This document shows, piece by piece, positions 36,259-56,444 of a stretch of 64,000 bases of DNA. The DNA comes from Ditibartonella choladocola (GTDB lineage Bacteria; Pseudomonadota; Alphaproteobacteria; Rhizobiales; Rhizobiaceae), in the NCBI RefSeq assembly GCF_002007565.1, contig NZ_CP015625.1, forward strand, positions 186,001-250,000. Direction: 5' to 3'. The notes beneath the pieces were generated by a model. That model saw only the letters and a program-made list of their open reading frames with translations. It was not told the origin of the DNA and searched no databases. Numbering within the stretch: position 1 is the first letter of the stretch; the number at the start of each line of letters is the position of its first letter. The position numbers were made by a program, and so were the translations under genes.

Positions 36259-37638
36259 TTATTTGCCAAAAAAGGTTGCGATTTTTTTAGCAATATGTTG
36301 TGCAACTTCATCCTTGCTCATTTTCGGCCATGTTTCGACATTTTCCCGGCTCACACATGAAATCCGGTTATAGTCGCCACCCATAATACTTGTACCATCT
36401 TTGGCAATGGCAACATCATTAGCCAAAATGAAATCGGCGCCCTTTTTATCAAGTTTCTTGCGGGCATTTTCGATAAGGTCGTTGGTCTCGGCGGCAAAGC
36501 CGATAACGAGTTTCGGCCGGTTCGGGGCATGGCCGATAGTGGCAAGAATATCGGGATTTTCGACCATTTTCAATGTCGGGGCAGATTGGCCTGATTGTTT
36601 CTTGATTTTTTGCGTGGCACTTTCGGCGCTGCGCCAATCGGCAACAGCCGCAACAAATATAGCAGCATCGGCAGGCAAGGCATGTTTGACCGCATCGAGC
36701 ATTTCTATTGCCGTTTCAACATGGTTTGTTTCAACACCATCCGGATCCGGAATGCTGACGGGGCCTGAAACGAGCGTAACACGGGCGCCAAGATGGTGAA
36801 GTGCGGCGGCAATTGCATGTCCCTGTTTGCCTGAAGAGCGGTTGGCAAGATAGCGCACAGGATCTATCGGCTCATGGGTCGGCCCCGACGTAACAATGAT
36901 ATGTTTTCCGGAGAGGGGTTTTTCTCCACAATCAAGCATGGATTCGACAGCCGCAACAATCGCGAGCGGTTCACTCATACGACCGCGTCCTGCCTCACCG
37001 CGTTCAGCCATTTCGCCGATTTCCGGCCCGATCGTTCTGACACCATCCGTCATGAGAGTGCTGATATTGCGTTGTGTTGCCGGATGTTTCCACATTGCCG
37101 GATTCATCGCCGGCGCAATAAGAATCGGTGAATTGGCCGCAAGAAGAATAGCTCCCGCAAGATCATCGGCAATGCCATTTGCCATTTTTGCAATCCGGTC
37201 GGCCGTTGCGGGGGCTACAACAATCAGATCGGCTGATCGGGCGAGCCTGATATGTCCAATATCATGTTCATCCTGGCGTTGAAAAAGATCGGTAAAAACA
37301 TGGCCGCCTGAAAGGCTGCCCGCAGCAAGCGGCGTTACAAATTCTGTCGCAGCTTTGGTCATCACCACAGTAACATTTGCTCCCCGCTCTTGTAATCGGC
37401 GAATGAGATCAAGCGCTTTATAAGCCGCAACTCCGCCAGTTATAATCAAAACTATCGACTTTGATTTCAATGATTGCATTTCTTTGGCGCTCGCCGCAGA
37501 TGGAAAGATTTCGGCACTATGACCGGAGATCAATAAAAGCCGTGCTTCTTCTTCCATAGAACGTTTATTTTTTGCAGCGTTGAGACGAAGTTTTTCCTTC
37601 GCTTCATCCGGTAAATTGCGGATTGTAATACTGGCCAT
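36259..37638 (-). CDS. coaBC: CoaBC with an N-terminal FitA-like ribbon-helix-helix domain
   Basis: 459 residues from the ATG at 37638 (GGGAGG, 6 bases). Residues 1-38 (MASITIRNLPDEAKEKLRLN...RSMEEEARLLL) are a FitA/Arc-type antitoxin DNA-binding motif. A linker leads to the CoaC flavoprotein domain (about 60-235): 'IVLIITGGVAAYKALDLIRRL', catalytic-type H129, 'VAPATADRIAKMANG', 'APAMNPAMW'. CoaB follows (about 242-455): 'IIVTSGPTHEPIDPVRYLANRSSGKQG', 'VAAVADWR', 'LKMVENPDIL', 'VIGFAAET'. Makes 4'-phosphopantetheine from phosphopantothenate and cysteine in CoA synthesis. The flap Cys of E. coli CoaC is replaced by Arg213 in 'AERGEAGRGRM'. The reading frame is unbroken across the junction. Confidence 0.93.
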   Translation of the reverse strand: MASITIRNLPDEAKEKLRLNAAKNKRSMEEEARLLLISGHSAEIFPSAASAKEMQSLKSKSIVLIITGGVAAYKALDLIRRLQERGANVTVVMTKAATEFVTPLAAGSLSGGHVFTDLFQRQDEHDIGHIRLARSADLIVVAPATADRIAKMANGIADDLAGAILLAANSPILIAPAMNPAMWKHPATQRNISTLMTDGVRTIGPEIGEMAERGEAGRGRMSEPLAIVAAVESMLDCGEKPLSGKHIIVTSGPTHEPIDPVRYLANRSSGKQGHAIAAALHHLGARVTLVSGPVSIPDPDGVETNHVETAIEMLDAVKHALPADAAIFVAAVADWRSAESATQKIKKQSGQSAPTLKMVENPDILATIGHAPNRPKLVIGFAAETNDLIENARKKLDKKGADFILANDVAIAKDGTSIMGGDYNRISCVSRENVETWPKMSKDEVAQHIAKKIATFFGK

Positions 37639-45951: not shown

Positions 45952-46808
45952 CTGTGATGATAGACTGGCTTGTCGAACCGTTTTCTTATGATTTCATGAT
46001 AAATGCAATGTGGGTTTCCGCATTGGTTGGTTGTGTTTGCGCATTCCTGTCGGCATTTTTGATGCTCAAAGGCTGGTCGCTGATCGGCGATGCGCTTTCC
46101 CATTCGATTGTGCCCGGTGTTGCGGGAGCCTATATGTTGGGGCTGCCTTTTTCGCTAGGCGCTTTTTTTTCGGGAGGCCTCGCCGCCTCTGCCATGTTGT
46201 TTTTCAACGAGCGGACGAAATTGAAAGAAGACACCATCATAGGCCTTATTTTTTCGTCCTTTTTTGCGCTCGGATTGTTTATGAAATCATTGAGGCCGAT
46301 GGCTGTCAGCATCGACACGATTGTACTTGGTAATATTCTGGCGGTGAGCCCCGCAGATATTTTCCAGCTTGCTCTGATCGGCGTTGTCTCGCTCGTTATA
46401 CTTTTCATTAAATGGAAAGATATGATGGTGACTTTCTTTGACGAAAATCATGCCCGTTCAATCGGAATAAACACCAAGGGATTGAAAATTCTGTTTTTTG
46501 CGTTGCTTGCGGCTTCAACAGTGGCGGCCATGCAGACAGTGGGTGCTTTTCTGGTTATCAGTCTTGTCGTCACACCGGGTGCAACCGCTTATCTGATAAC
46601 CGATCGTTTCCAGCGTTTGATTGTTCTTTCGGTCCTGATCGGCATTCTCACAAGTGTAGTCGGCGTTTATTTAAGTTATCTGATCCACGCCCAGACCGGC
46701 GGCGTGATTGTATTGTTGCAGGCACTATTATTTGCTTTGAGTTTTATCTTTGCGCCCAAACACGGTTTCATTGCGGCACGGCTGCGTGCACGGAAAGTAC
46801 AATCATGA
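45948..46808 (+). CDS. sitC: Mn/Fe ABC transporter permease
   Basis: 286 residues, from a GTG overlapping the sitB stop (an ATG at 45957 is an alternative). ABC-3 family permease with about eight helices; typical 'MLKGWSLIGDALSHSIVPGVAGAYMLGLPFSLGAFFSGGLAA' and 'TVGAFLVISLVVTPGATAYLITDRF'. Pairs with SitD. Overlaps sitD by 4 bases. Confidence 0.93.
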   Translation: MTVMIDWLVEPFSYDFMINAMWVSALVGCVCAFLSAFLMLKGWSLIGDALSHSIVPGVAGAYMLGLPFSLGAFFSGGLAASAMLFFNERTKLKEDTIIGLIFSSFFALGLFMKSLRPMAVSIDTIVLGNILAVSPADIFQLALIGVVSLVILFIKWKDMMVTFFDENHARSIGINTKGLKILFFALLAASTVAAMQTVGAFLVISLVVTPGATAYLITDRFQRLIVLSVLIGILTSVVGVYLSYLIHAQTGGVIVLLQALLFALSFIFAPKHGFIAARLRARKVQS

Positions 46809-47713
46809 TAGATACGCTTTTGTTTCCCTTCCAATTTCCTTTCATGATCCGGGGAATGCTGATTACAATGATTGTTGGCGTGCCGATGGCAATGCTATCC
46901 TGTTTTTTGATTTTGAAAGGTTGGTCGCTTTTGGGGGATGCAATCTCGCACGCCGTTTTTCCGGGTGTCGTCGCCGGTTATATGATGACGCCGGCAGCAC
47001 TATTTGTTTTGGGGCTTATCCCCTTTATCGGTGCCGAGGCAATCAACCGGTCCGATGTGACCATGGCAATGATGGCCTTCGGTGCATTTCTGGCTGGCAT
47101 GGTATGTGCGGTTCTCACCGGTTTTTTGGGGGCAAATAGCCGCATCAAGCAAGACACGGTCATGGGGGTTGTGTTTTCTTCAATGTTCGGTTTGGGACTT
47201 GTTCTGGCAACCAGTATAGAAAGCGAACTTCATCTCAATCACATTCTGTTTGGCCATTTATTGGGCGTAAACCGGATTGATATTTTTGAAACTCTCTTCA
47301 TCTCGGTTTTGGTGGCCGTTACCCTTGGTGCAAAATGGCGCGATTTTCTGCTTTTTACGTTTGATCCCATTCAGGCAAAAGCTGTAGGGCTCAATGAACG
47401 GTTTTTGCATTATGCTTTATTGACAATGATTTCGCTGACAATCGTTGCGGCATTGAAAGCCGTCGGGATAATATTGGCTATTTCATTGCTCATTGCGCCT
47501 GGTGCCATTGCCTATCTTGTAACAAAACGTTTCTCATTAATGATTGTTATCGCGATCGCCATTGCGGTTATAAGCAGCTTTCTCGGCGTTTATTCAAGCG
47601 CGTTTATCGGTTCTGATGCGGCATCGACAATTGTATTGATAATGACCGTTCTTTTTATCGTTGCGTTCGGCTTTATATCAATTGCAGCACATATCCGTTC
47701 ATCAGCAACTTGA
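46805..47713 (+). CDS. sitD: Mn/Fe ABC transporter permease, second subunit
   Basis: 302 residues. Same ABC-3 fold as SitC ('LILKGWSLLGDAISHAVFPGVVAGYM', 'LGANSRIKQDTVMGVVFSSMFGLGLVLAT', 'AVGIILAISLLIAPGAIAYLVTKRF'). Two different permeases in one operon is the SitABCD/YfeABCD arrangement. Last gene of the operon; no clear terminator. Confidence 0.93.
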   Translation: MIDTLLFPFQFPFMIRGMLITMIVGVPMAMLSCFLILKGWSLLGDAISHAVFPGVVAGYMMTPAALFVLGLIPFIGAEAINRSDVTMAMMAFGAFLAGMVCAVLTGFLGANSRIKQDTVMGVVFSSMFGLGLVLATSIESELHLNHILFGHLLGVNRIDIFETLFISVLVAVTLGAKWRDFLLFTFDPIQAKAVGLNERFLHYALLTMISLTIVAALKAVGIILAISLLIAPGAIAYLVTKRFSLMIVIAIAIAVISSFLGVYSSAFIGSDAASTIVLIMTVLFIVAFGFISIAAHIRSSAT

Positions 47714-47773: not shown

Positions 47774-48550
47774 ATGAAATGCTATGTGATTAATCTTGAT
47801 CGCTCTGAAGAGAGGTTAACCCATATAAGAAGCGTATTTACCAAAGAAGGCCTCGATTTTATCCGCGTCAAAGCTGTTGATGGCCGTTCTTTGTCTGATG
47901 AGCAATTCGAGGAGCTGACACGCGTTCGCAATTGGCCTAAAAAACTGGCAAGAGCGGAAGTCGGCTGTTTTCTCAGTCATCTTGAATGCTGGCGGTTGAT
48001 TGCCGAAGGAGATGATCTCTATGGAGCCGTGTTCGAGGATGACATAAAACTTTCGCCCCATGCCCATTTGTTTTTGAAAAACTATGATTGGGTGCCTGAA
48101 GGGTGTGACATTGTTAAACTAGATACCGCACGAATCGTTTGTGTTTTAAAAAAATTCGACACCGAACTTGCCGACCATTACAAATTGGGACGACTTGTTA
48201 GCAAACATTATTGTTCCGGTGGTTACATCATGTCGAAAGCTTGCGCCAGACGGCTATATGACGAAATCAAACTTGTCACGGCACCGATTGATGAAATCAT
48301 GTATAATCCGGAATGCGGCGTTTGCCGTTCCCTCAATATCGAGCAGATGTTTCCGGCTATCGCTATCCAGATCGGGCTTTCCAGCACGATTCTTGCAGAT
48401 CGAAAGAAGGTCAAATCTGTTAAACGAGTGAAGCGCCCGATCTCGCAAAGAATACGGCGTGAGTTAAATCGTTTAAAAAAACGGTACGTGAAACCCTGGT
48501 TTTTGAAAACATTTCGCGGCTTTTATTGGGGCATTGTCCCGTTTCGTTAA
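47774..48550 (+). CDS. Glycosyltransferase family 25 (LPS/LOS biosynthesis type)
   Basis: 258 residues. GT25 landmarks: 'CYVINLDRSEERLTHIRSVF', 'ARAEVGCFLSHLECWRLI', the acidic sugar-nucleotide/metal motif 'YGAVFEDDIKLSP', and 'SGGYIMSKACARRLYDEI'. A very basic C-terminal stretch (about 215-240) may hold it to the inner face of the membrane. Likely adds a sugar (often galactose) to lipooligosaccharide; acceptor unknown. Lies 60 bases after sitD without obvious functional link. Confidence 0.85.
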   Translation: MKCYVINLDRSEERLTHIRSVFTKEGLDFIRVKAVDGRSLSDEQFEELTRVRNWPKKLARAEVGCFLSHLECWRLIAEGDDLYGAVFEDDIKLSPHAHLFLKNYDWVPEGCDIVKLDTARIVCVLKKFDTELADHYKLGRLVSKHYCSGGYIMSKACARRLYDEIKLVTAPIDEIMYNPECGVCRSLNIEQMFPAIAIQIGLSSTILADRKKVKSVKRVKRPISQRIRRELNRLKKRYVKPWFLKTFRGFYWGIVPFR

Positions 48551-48635
48551 TCGTAACTTTTTGAAAACAAAGGTTTTTTAAATGCATATCAGCTATGCAT
48601 AATTGTGGGTTGTTGTTTGGGGTCTCATGCAATAT

Positions 48636-48758
48636 CTTTCCTCTTGCTGGATTACTCCTCCTCCCAAATCCAGCAAGTTGAATGCAGCACCTCCTCCTCC
48701 CATAGCTGCATTCGGAATCAAAGGCTGCGCATCTCCTCCCGCGCGGCCTTTTTCTTTT
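48636..48758 (+). ncRNA. Small RNA candidate: three hairpins, each with a CUCCUCC anti-Shine-Dalgarno loop
   Basis: Three consecutive perfect or near-perfect stems. HP1 48643-48677: 11-bp stem CTTGCTGGATT / AATCCAGCAAG, loop ACTCCTCCTCCCA. HP2 48680-48713: 9-bp stem GAATGCAGC / GCTGCATTC, loop ACCTCCTCCTCCCATA. HP3 48721-48750: 10-bp stem AAGGCTGCGC / GCGCGGCCTT (one G-U), loop ATCTCCTCCC, followed by TTTCTTTTC, a Rho-independent terminator. This is the layout of alphaproteobacterial CCUCCUCCC-loop sRNAs (alpha-r14/NfeR1 of rhizobia, CcsR 'cuckoo' RNAs of Rhodobacter), trans-acting RNAs thought to pair with ribosome binding sites. The 3' end is firm; the 5' end is uncertain (possible -10 elements CAATAT at 48630-48635 or further upstream). 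Confidence 0.85.
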
Positions 48759-49457
48759 CTTGAAAAATATCTGGCAATCTCCAATTCTTGCCACCTGATT
48801 ACAACACCCGCTATTTCATATTCATCAACCGCCTGATCGTTCACCATTTTGCCGGATGAAAATTCACCATTTGGCTTAATGATAACCAAGAGCCAAAATG
48901 GCAATCTGGAACCTTCGCAACAATTTCCATCAATATCCTGATAAGGATGTTAAGGTCTAAAGGCGTTTTCTCCTAATAAAAACAAGTTTTGTTGAATCAC
49001 AAATACGAGATCAGCAATAAAAAAATCCTTATGCCGAAAACAACAATTTAAATCCGGAATTGAATATGGGGAATTGTCGACTTTGAAGTTCTCAACCGGT
49101 GATTTATTTTTTCATTACTTTTTAAAGTAACTTATAGCCCGTAAACGTGCCTATAGTTCGGTGAACAGCCAATTCATACGGGATTTCTTTTCAGGTTTCT
49201 GTGATTAGTCGAGTTATTATAGAACTTCAAAAAGCCTGTTCCGTTAAAGGTGTTTTTTGGGAAAAACCGGCTGCGATTTCTATGCGGGTATTTTCCGGCT
49301 GGAATTTTGATGTAAAAAATTTTTTAATCGAAATCACGGAAACTGTATAAGGTTAACATTCTGTTAATTATCACGTATTTAATTGGGTTACACGAAGCTG
49401 ATTCGTTTTAACTGCCTTGATTGAAACAATCTCGATTGAAACAATGAAGAGGGGAAT
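48759..49457. other. Gene-free region between the sRNA and the L,D-transpeptidase
   Basis: About 700 bases, AT-rich. On the minus strand 48760-48950 can be read as a protein-like stretch without a start (stop upstream), possibly a gene remnant, but it runs into the sRNA complement and is not called as a gene. TTGATTGAAACAATC / TCGATTGAAACAATG, a short direct repeat, lies at about 49417-49446 just before the next ribosome site. Confidence 0.4.
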
Positions 49458-50078
49458 ATGCGCGTAAAAACTATTCTGGTTGCTGCCAGCCTTTTGGCTA
49501 GTGCAACACTTGCCGGTTGTACAACCACGGGAGGCTCGTCATCGACGCTTGCGGCCTATTCTCAGGTCAATGATGGCGGATTTATTATTCCCGCAATCAA
49601 GGCAAACGAGATCAAACCGGAATTTCGCCGGCAGATTGTAGCCTATCCGACAGATGAAAAGCCGGGAACAATTATTATTGATACTGCCAACAAGCACCTT
49701 TATTACATCATGCCGGATGGCAAGGCCATGCGTTATGGCATTGGCGTGGGGCGTGACGGATTCCGTTGGACGGGGAATGCAACAATTGGACGTAAGGCGG
49801 AATGGCCAGCCTGGGTTCCGCCACAGCGTATGTTGGTACGCCAGCCGGAATTGAAAGAATTTGCCGGTGGAATGAAACCGGGCTTGCAAAACCCGCTTGG
49901 TGCGCGTGCGCTCTATCTTTATAAAGATGGCAAGGACAGCATGTTCAGACTGCATGGCACGCCTGAATGGTGGACGATTGGTACCAATGTGTCATCCGGA
50001 TGCATCCGCCTTATCAATCAGGATATTATAGATCTTTATAATCGTGCGGAAGTCGGCGCAAAGGTTATCGTAAAATAA
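49458..50078 (+). CDS. L,D-transpeptidase (YkuD) lipoprotein
   Basis: 206 residues, GAGGGG ribosome site. Lipobox L-A-G-C21. YkuD domain about 65-206: 'GTIIIDTANKHLYYIMPDGKAMRYGIGVGRDGFRWTG', 'EWPAWVPPQRML', 'PLGARALYLY', and the catalytic block H166-G ... 'TNVSSGCIRLINQDIIDLY' with nucleophile C182. Makes 3-3 peptidoglycan cross-links or attaches proteins to peptidoglycan; Rhizobiales have many paralogues. Its last codons are duplicated directly after the stop (21-bp tandem repeat 50063-50104). Confidence 0.9.
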   Translation: MRVKTILVAASLLASATLAGCTTTGGSSSTLAAYSQVNDGGFIIPAIKANEIKPEFRRQIVAYPTDEKPGTIIIDTANKHLYYIMPDGKAMRYGIGVGRDGFRWTGNATIGRKAEWPAWVPPQRMLVRQPELKEFAGGMKPGLQNPLGARALYLYKDGKDSMFRLHGTPEWWTIGTNVSSGCIRLINQDIIDLYNRAEVGAKVIVK

Positions 50079-50418: not shown

Positions 50419-50802
50419 TTAACGGGACGGCCGCGTCAGGATATAAATCGAAATCACAATCAAAATGCAAATTGTTGCGAGCGCCAGCCATAGAACCGGC
50501 TGTGCTATCAACATAAACGAGCAAAATCCTATAGCCATCCCTCCGACGGCCAGAAATTTGATAAAAGGCGATATGACCCCGCGTTCTTCCCATTGCTTGA
50601 TAGGAGGGCCGAAAATTTTATGATGATGAAGCCAATTGTGAAAACGCGGAGATGACCTTGCGAAACACCAGGATGCGACAAGCAAAAACGGCACCGTCGG
50701 CATAATGGGCAAAACAGCTCCGATAATGCCCAGAACGACCATAAGACAGCCTATAACCAGATAAACTATACGCAATGGTGCAGGAGTATTGAACTCTTTC
50801 AT
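50419..50802 (-). CDS. DUF454 (YbaN-like) inner-membrane protein
   Basis: 127 residues. 'LVIGCLMVVLGIIGAVLPIMPTVPFLLVASWCFARSSPRFHNWLHHHKIFGPPIKQWEERGVI' is the DUF454 signature; three hydrophobic helices. Widespread, function unknown. Divergent from the RlpA-like gene. Confidence 0.88.
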   Translation of the reverse strand: MKEFNTPAPLRIVYLVIGCLMVVLGIIGAVLPIMPTVPFLLVASWCFARSSPRFHNWLHHHKIFGPPIKQWEERGVISPFIKFLAVGGMAIGFCSFMLIAQPVLWLALATICILIVISIYILTRPSR

Positions 50803-56277: not shown

Positions 56278-56444
56278 ATAAATAATCCTTTAGCTTGTGT
56301 TCCGGACGGTGTCGGGCAAAATGGTTCAAAAAAAGTGATTCCCCCATTCTAATCCCAGGCGCCGCTGGCGGAACCCCAGCATGCCTAACTGATATTATGG
56401 GCATTAATTTGAAAAAATACAAGTCTCGCATCATCCGGAATAGA

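Follow-up and report, generated by a model that had tools for sequence, protein, structure and literature searches.

The window (the whole 64-kb stretch of DNA analysed, from the 2,907,212-bp genome of a Bartonella close to B. apis) contains a small RNA with three hairpins on its plus strand. The genes around it encode an ABC-3 family metal-transport permease, a GT25 glycosyltransferase, an L,D-transpeptidase and a DUF454 protein (Table 1). The GT25 gene is on the same strand as the RNA, with 86 nt between its stop codon and the RNA. The location between the GT25 and L,D-transpeptidase genes given in the first-pass annotation is correct for this genome, but is not the general setting of the RNA. 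In a comparison of 24 Bartonella ar14 loci, the GT25 gene lay between the permease gene and the RNA in nine (those of the group to which this genome belongs, plus B. tamiae), and the L,D-transpeptidase gene was found in eight of these nine (8/24 loci); at locus L006, it was not present in the 1.26 kb downstream from the RNA. In the remaining 15 loci, the RNA was followed by the DUF454 gene and no GT25 gene was seen within 1.5 kb. The common neighbour is the permease gene, which was upstream from the RNA in 24 of 24 loci.

Table 1. Features of the RNA locus and of two related loci in the same genome (positions refer to the window unless a locus or contig is named).
Feature	Position	Strand	Evidence or remark
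ABC-3 family metal-transport permease	46805..47713	+	PF00950, 227.4 bits; conserved upstream neighbour
GT25 glycosyltransferase	47774..48550	+	PF01755, 108.8 bits
Promoter box TGCATATCAGCTATGCA, interrupted palindrome	48583..48599	+	Sequence; putative VtlR/LsrB site
Extended conserved promoter stretch GCATADYAGNNATGCNNWWTTRTNNNTTGT	48584..48613	+	61/61 Bartonella genomes drawn
CAATAT, possible -10 element	48630..48635	+	By eye, weak; absent from sigma-70 scan report
alpha-r14 (NfeR1-family) small RNA	48637..48754	+	Rfam RF02344 (ar14), 87.2 bits, E 2.2e-14
Hairpin 1	48643..48677	+	11 bp; loop ACUCCUCCUCCCA
Hairpin 2	48680..48713	+	9 bp, more with U-G pairs; loop ACCUCCUCCUCCCAUA
Hairpin 3 (terminator stem)	48720..48751	+	11 bp; loop AUCUCCUCCC
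T-rich terminator tail TTTTTCTTTTC	48749..48759	+	Sequence
L,D-transpeptidase (YkuD)	49458..50078	+	PF03734, 82.1 bits
DUF454 gene	50419..50802	-	PF04304, 131.2 bits
ar15/AbcR, beside the LysR gene	G000:C1:1881640-1881758	-	ar15 model match
DUF1127 ORF of the second locus	L002 1608-1832	-	LsrB-type box at 1836-1852, just upstream

Structure, family and conservation of the RNA

Sequence and fold confirmed the presence of three back-to-back hairpins with CUCCUCC in their loops, followed by a T run; the first two stems have the lengths initially assigned to them, whereas the third is of 11 rather than 10 bp. As in other alpha-r14 RNAs, three hairpins thus present unpaired anti-Shine-Dalgarno (aSD) sequence, the full CCUCCUCCC motif being found in loops 1 and 2 only, with loop 3 one C short (CUCCUCCC). 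The minimum free energy of the segment 48636-48765 was -48.4 kcal/mol, versus a mean of -23.96 (sd 3) for 200 shuffled sequences, none of which folded as well (z -8.15). The sequence CCTCCTCCC occurred twice in the 64-kb window, both times inside this RNA, for an expected value of 0.14, and two copies were obtained in none of 100 shuffles of the window.

The Rfam comparison suggested in the first-pass annotation gave a match to RF02344 covering positions 1-123 of the 123 positions of the model, above the cutoff of 58.8 bits. The element is a well-supported, ordinary member of this known family. The layout had been likened to both the alpha-r14/NfeR1 and the CcsR groups; the first of these assignments holds, but membership of the second was rejected, as the CcsR1 model (RF02791) gave 28.0 bits against a cutoff of 65.3 and the gene upstream is GT25 instead of DUF1127. 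The ar15 model (RF02345) had no match at its gathering score in the window, which places the RNA outside the AbcR family. A transcript of about 118 nt is predicted for this species. Pattern scans of 48550-48800 for sigma-70 promoters and terminators reported neither; the terminator scan accepts loops of 3-8 nt, and the loop of hairpin 3 is 10 nt long. A leader RNA of the ybhL type (RF00520, 57.6 bits for a cutoff of 50) is present elsewhere in the window, at 56295-56387 on the minus strand.

The ar14 model matched 26 of 37 genomes of the genus at E ≤ 0.1, with nine of these matches exceeding the cutoff. The promoter stretch had a broader reach: a pattern built from 24 ar14-matching loci, to which 37 of the 61 genomes drawn contributed no input, was found at this locus in all 61 (56 exact, five with one mismatch; no match for the reversed pattern), and a hairpin-and-terminator RNA follows it in each. 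These 61 orthologues (57 distinct) were aligned with plain MAFFT, and the structure of the RNA in the window was imposed on the alignment. This alignment excludes the additional tandem copy of both G009 and G075, the row from the second contig of G067, two-mismatch matches away from this locus in G015, G026 and G034, and three Brucella rows that had been aligned at an earlier stage.

In this alignment, 87.9% of the cells were paired, versus 25.7-44.7% when the structure was slid along the rows, a contrast inflated by the structure having been taken from one of the rows aligned. Two-sided changes were observed in 68 cells, versus 19.2 (sd 4.8) in shuffles, none of 500 being as high, and concerned 10 pairs, versus 6.8 in shuffles (reached in 4 of 500), although both figures are inflated by the shared ancestry of the rows. 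The number of further pair types was ordinary and was matched by 80 of the 500 shuffles. Helix 1 had two-sided changes in seven of its 11 pairs, with 73.8% of cells paired; its outer three pairs and its innermost pair are not general among the 61 sequences, and single-sequence folds of several orthologues (e.g. L045, L121 and L124) favoured other pairings for this hairpin. Higher proportions of paired cells were obtained for helix 2 with two U-G pairs added (96.5%, one pair with two-sided changes) and helix 3 (93.9%, two pairs). The alignment of homologous regions proposed at the outset therefore revealed stems that diverge in sequence yet keep pairing, as expected for an alpha-r14 RNA. The accompanying claim of selection on structure and loop motif together is supported by these compensatory changes, but does not extend to loop 3, which is not kept in 48 of the 61 genomes.

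Promoter box and candidate regulator

The complement of the box located 38-54 nt before the Rfam start of the RNA contains GCAT-N3-TG-N3-T, the published VtlR/LsrB consensus, which has been described in Brucella, Agrobacterium and Sinorhizobium (PMC7486931 and PMC8844928, accessible parts). An LsrB-type box upstream, as in other alpha-r14 RNAs, is thus present by sequence match. This consensus was found within the box in 57 of the 61 genomes, the exceptions being G075, G009, G022 and G061; the strict consensus alone had 12 occurrences in the 64-kb window, including this site. The exact box was found at 54 places in the genome collection: 48 in records labelled Bartonella, three in Brucella, one in an uncultured Rhizobium and two in Bacteroides. 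The three Brucella boxes directly precede ar14 RNAs (87.0, 84.0 and 87.0 bits) and the Rhizobium box directly precedes an ar15 (AbcR) RNA (100.3 bits), whereas neither ar14 nor ar15 was found at the two Bacteroides places.

As a 17-mer class, the box has exactly two sites in its own genome, one before this RNA and the other just upstream from a DUF1127 ORF accompanied by an ar14-like array, but this is a weak test, the pattern having been widened to fit both sites after the DUF1127 site was seen. With up to two mismatches allowed, there were 10 strand-hits (palindromic sites being counted twice), versus five for the reversed control; the ar15 promoter of this genome carries the 17-mer with two mismatches.

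The second of these loci (L002, G000:C1:2799001-2802110) resembles a CIN1/CcaF1-CcsR-type locus. At about L002 1146-1610, on the minus strand, the DUF1127 ORF is followed by a three-hairpin ar14-like RNA scoring 55.1 bits, below the cutoff, the last hairpin of which is the first of six imperfect tandem units with a spacing of 64-80 nt; four of these six units carry CCCCCTCCC. Second ar14 matches, at 46.7-56.3 bits, were found in eight members of the set of 37 genomes, including this one. Two other regions of this genome gave weaker ar14 scores (15.6 and 14.2 bits) and were set aside, the second falling inside the DUF1127 array.

A gene encoding a LysR-type protein lies between trxB (TIGR01292, above cutoff) and ar15, the published gene order for vtlR/lsrB. 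Each of the 61 genomes contained a single match to the protein at E ≤ 1e-60, with 75-100% identity (99% for those of G065 and G082). Its orthology to VtlR/LsrB rests on gene order, because it reached no model cutoff in NCBIfam and its best PDB match was a LysR protein of unstated name. From the sequence of the box, this RNA is probably under the control of LsrB.

Among the closest known systems is NfeR1 of S. meliloti, an LsrB-activated RNA that uses redundant aSD loops to silence mRNAs, its gene having a box at -72 to -57 and the core promoter CTTAGAC-N17-CTATAT (PMC10746234, accessible part). NfeR1 and this RNA have in common a full-length covariance match, three hairpins with aSD loops and an LsrB-type box upstream. 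They differ in that the box is nearer to the start here and that the NfeR1-type core was not recognisable, either by eye or with a generic sigma-70 scan. They also differ in that ntrB is not a predicted target of this RNA and that 48 of the 61 Bartonella genomes have no third seed. The AbcR1/2 RNAs (alpha-r15) likewise have aSD seeds and reported VtlR/LsrB control in relatives, with conflicting reports for AbcR in S. meliloti (PMC7486931 and PMC8844928, as far as accessible), but belong to another family, with another fold and a separate locus.

Loop divergence within Bartonella and BbsR14

The first two loops are mostly conserved in the genus. CCTCC was present in all three hairpin segments in 13 of the 61 genomes, and 15 genomes had it in the first two segments but not the third; in 31 others, segment 1 had CCTCC and segment 2 had CTCC with a C run. 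One genome had CCTCC in segment 2 only; in another, CCTCC was confined to segment 1 and segment 2 had just a C run. In total, 48 genomes had no CCTCC in segment 3. The 13 three-seed genomes are those with a LysR protein at least 86% identical to that of this genome, the others having 75-79% identity, and ar15 exceeded its cutoff in exactly the same 13 genomes; in the other 48, it was below the cutoff (10 weak matches) or undetected (38 with none at E ≤ 0.01). The 48 genomes represent one clade-level split rather than 48 independent events. Across the split, seed 1 changes from CUCCUCCUCCCA to, mostly, UUUUCCUCCUAA, and seed 2 is a run of C in 32 of the 61 genomes. By eye, the ar15 stretch of G022 and of G075 looks degenerate or absent.

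That 48 of the 61 genomes lack the third seed appears to be a new observation; with a seed number varying between lineages of one genus, this multi-seed sRNA offers a way of testing what redundant seeds are used for. We tentatively suggest, with more doubt than confidence, that the LsrB-controlled anti-SD circuit was rebuilt at the split separating the group of this genome, which includes the bee-gut species B. apis together with B. apihabitans and B. tamiae, from the remaining Bartonella species, which are mammal-infecting. Such a rebuilding would imply that host-restricted species moved away from the repression of catabolic genes led by GGGAGGA, towards a target set that is smaller or has other members. 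In two 1.4-Mb Bartonella genomes, a duplicate of the RNA lies in tandem with it, at a distance of about 265 bp (L040 of G075 and L041 of G009), with TTTTTTCATCCC where seed 2 would stand.

In the 1,445,021-bp genome G075, which we take to be that of B. bacilliformis KC583, both remaining loops of the orthologous RNA read TTCCTCCTAA, and two such motifs spaced 20-45 nt apart occur once in the genome, at this RNA, near 1360.5-1360.7 kb. We infer that the orthologue is very probably BbsR14. Wachter et al. reported BbsR14, found by RNA-seq, as two stem-loops with TTCCTCCTAA, at a higher level at pH 8 than at pH 6 (PMC7717549, main text). BbsR14 thus resembles the RNA of the window in having stem-loops with the aSD motif, but has two seeds and a tandem second copy beside it, rather than three seeds.

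The identification of BbsR14 appears to be new: the main text of PMC7717549 mentions none of alpha-r14, NfeR, CcsR, Rfam and cuckoo RNAs, our literature search retrieved BbsR14 from no other paper, and searches combining Bartonella with LsrB, VtlR, NfeR1, ar14/r14 or sRNA yielded no paper linking BbsR14 to the family. The same literature search found no expression data for the species of the window. The presence of the family in Bartonellaceae is not new, since a 2011 survey included SmelA075 and SmelA099, models with three and four CCUCCUCCC hairpins, respectively, among seven models with members in Bartonellaceae (PMC3927594, accessible part). The identification would link an orphan sRNA from a human pathogen with a family whose mechanism is established, and would name its probable activator.

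Predicted targets and mode of action

For five of the 57 ORFs in the window, the sequence preceding the chosen start matched the loops over at least 6 nt, versus none of 57 for a control stretch, although starts were chosen partly by loop-match score, which favours the first figure; for the other 52, the match was of 5 nt or less. The five include glpK (23353) and coaBC (37638, minus strand), both with GGGAGG. These two genes had been proposed as examples of many GGAGG-led targets in the window: both stand as candidates, but the claim narrows to five ORFs of 57, and the PepSY gene proposed with them was not located among the 19 of 57 ORFs scanned against Pfam.

Genome-wide, GGGAGGA-N3-10-ATG was found at 35 places (six for the reversed control) and GGAGGAG-N3-10-ATG at 21 (eight for the reversed control). 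Loci were obtained for 30 of the 35 and all 21 of these places, the two lists sharing places, and for 30 of 39 AAAGGAG places used as a control; the removal of duplicates and ORFs of less than 90 aa left 34 strong-site and 13 control ORFs. Transport or small-molecule catabolism accounted for 25 of the 34 strong-site ORFs, versus 2 of the 13 controls (Fisher p 0.0004), with the reservation that this Pfam-based sorting was post hoc and not blinded, the proteins having been seen beforehand. The control set was also poor, with 39 AAAGGAG places for 23 in the reversed control and 7-nt loop matches in 2 of its 13 ORFs. Two loci resembling internal starts (L215 and L246) were not counted as transport or catabolic. 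The 25 ORFs include those for MFS, lactate, KdgT and CstA permeases, a branched-chain amino-acid permease, a periplasmic binding protein, aldehyde dehydrogenases, a protocatechuate dioxygenase and an acetyl-CoA synthetase. This result is in line with the abundance of transporter genes among the targets of NfeR1 and AbcR reported in the accessible parts of PMC10746234, PMC7486931 and PMC8844928, but the enrichment may reflect only how catabolic genes are translated.

The other nine strong-site ORFs include rpoN, lnt and a response regulator. Through the GGGAGGA site of rpoN (L208), the sigma-54 network could come within reach of an aSD RNA. The gene for ntrB, a validated target of NfeR1 in S. 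meliloti, was located between dusB and ntrC (210.7 bits for a cutoff of 240, dusB and ntrC exceeding theirs), and was rejected as a target here, its start region reading GAAAAGGGCAGCUUGACAAUG, with no GGAGG-like site.

We consider this RNA, with a probability of about 85%, to be the Bartonella orthologue of the trans-acting sRNA alpha-r14/NfeR1, activated by LsrB and blocking strong ribosome-binding sites. The LysR-type activator encoded between trxB and ar15/AbcR would bind the box at 48583-48599 and switch on a transcript ending at the third hairpin. Each of its three loops would expose an aSD seed, redundant with the others, and the pairing of a loop with an unusually strong ribosome-binding site of the GGGAGGA or GGAGGAG type would block translation. 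The data show the family, structure and conservation of the RNA, its box and the regulator gene, whereas expression in this species, control by LsrB, repression and the target set are predictions. As the best-matching sites mostly precede genes for transport and the catabolism of carbon compounds, the RNA would be expected to restrain nutrient uptake and catabolism under conditions of LsrB activity.

Other readings of the locus were weighed against the same data. The seeds consist of anti-SD sequence only, and the authors of BbsR14 speculated about "indiscriminate repression" (PMC7717549, main text), so the RNA might repress translation generally, with no defined regulon. We find this improbable, as binding should be selective if 52 of 57 ORFs in the window match the loops over 5 nt or less, and NfeR1 is reported to act on named mRNAs (PMC10746234, accessible part). 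It is very unlikely that the hairpins are simply the 3' UTR or terminator of a GT25/metal-transporter operon, their C-rich loops having no regulatory use. The GT25 gene is indeed on the same strand, at a short distance, and the third hairpin is a terminator stem, but the box separates the upstream gene from the RNA in all 61 genomes, the 15 loci lacking GT25 still have the RNA, the stems undergo compensated changes whereas the first two loops are mostly conserved, and BbsR14 is an expressed RNA (PMC7717549, main text).

The position of the box also argues against the alternative to alpha-r14, a CcsR-type RNA associated with DUF1127/CcaF1 and released by the processing of a longer transcript. 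CcsR1-4 and the CIN1 loci share the CCUCCUCCC-type loop logic with this RNA, and the CcsR1 model does give it a score, but one falling short of the cutoff. CcsR1-4 are co-transcribed with a DUF1127 gene and then processed (PMC10253847, accessible part), whereas no DUF1127 protein match was obtained within 1.5 kb of this RNA (locus L001), the DUF1127 layout belonging to the second locus of the genome. We regard this assignment as highly improbable and retain that of an LsrB-activated alpha-r14 RNA.

One of the candidate targets in the window, CoaBC (36262-37638, minus strand), has an additional N-terminal stretch of about 56 aa, the CoaBC model starting at residue 57, and residues 2-36 of this stretch match a FitA-like ribbon-helix-helix domain (PF22513).
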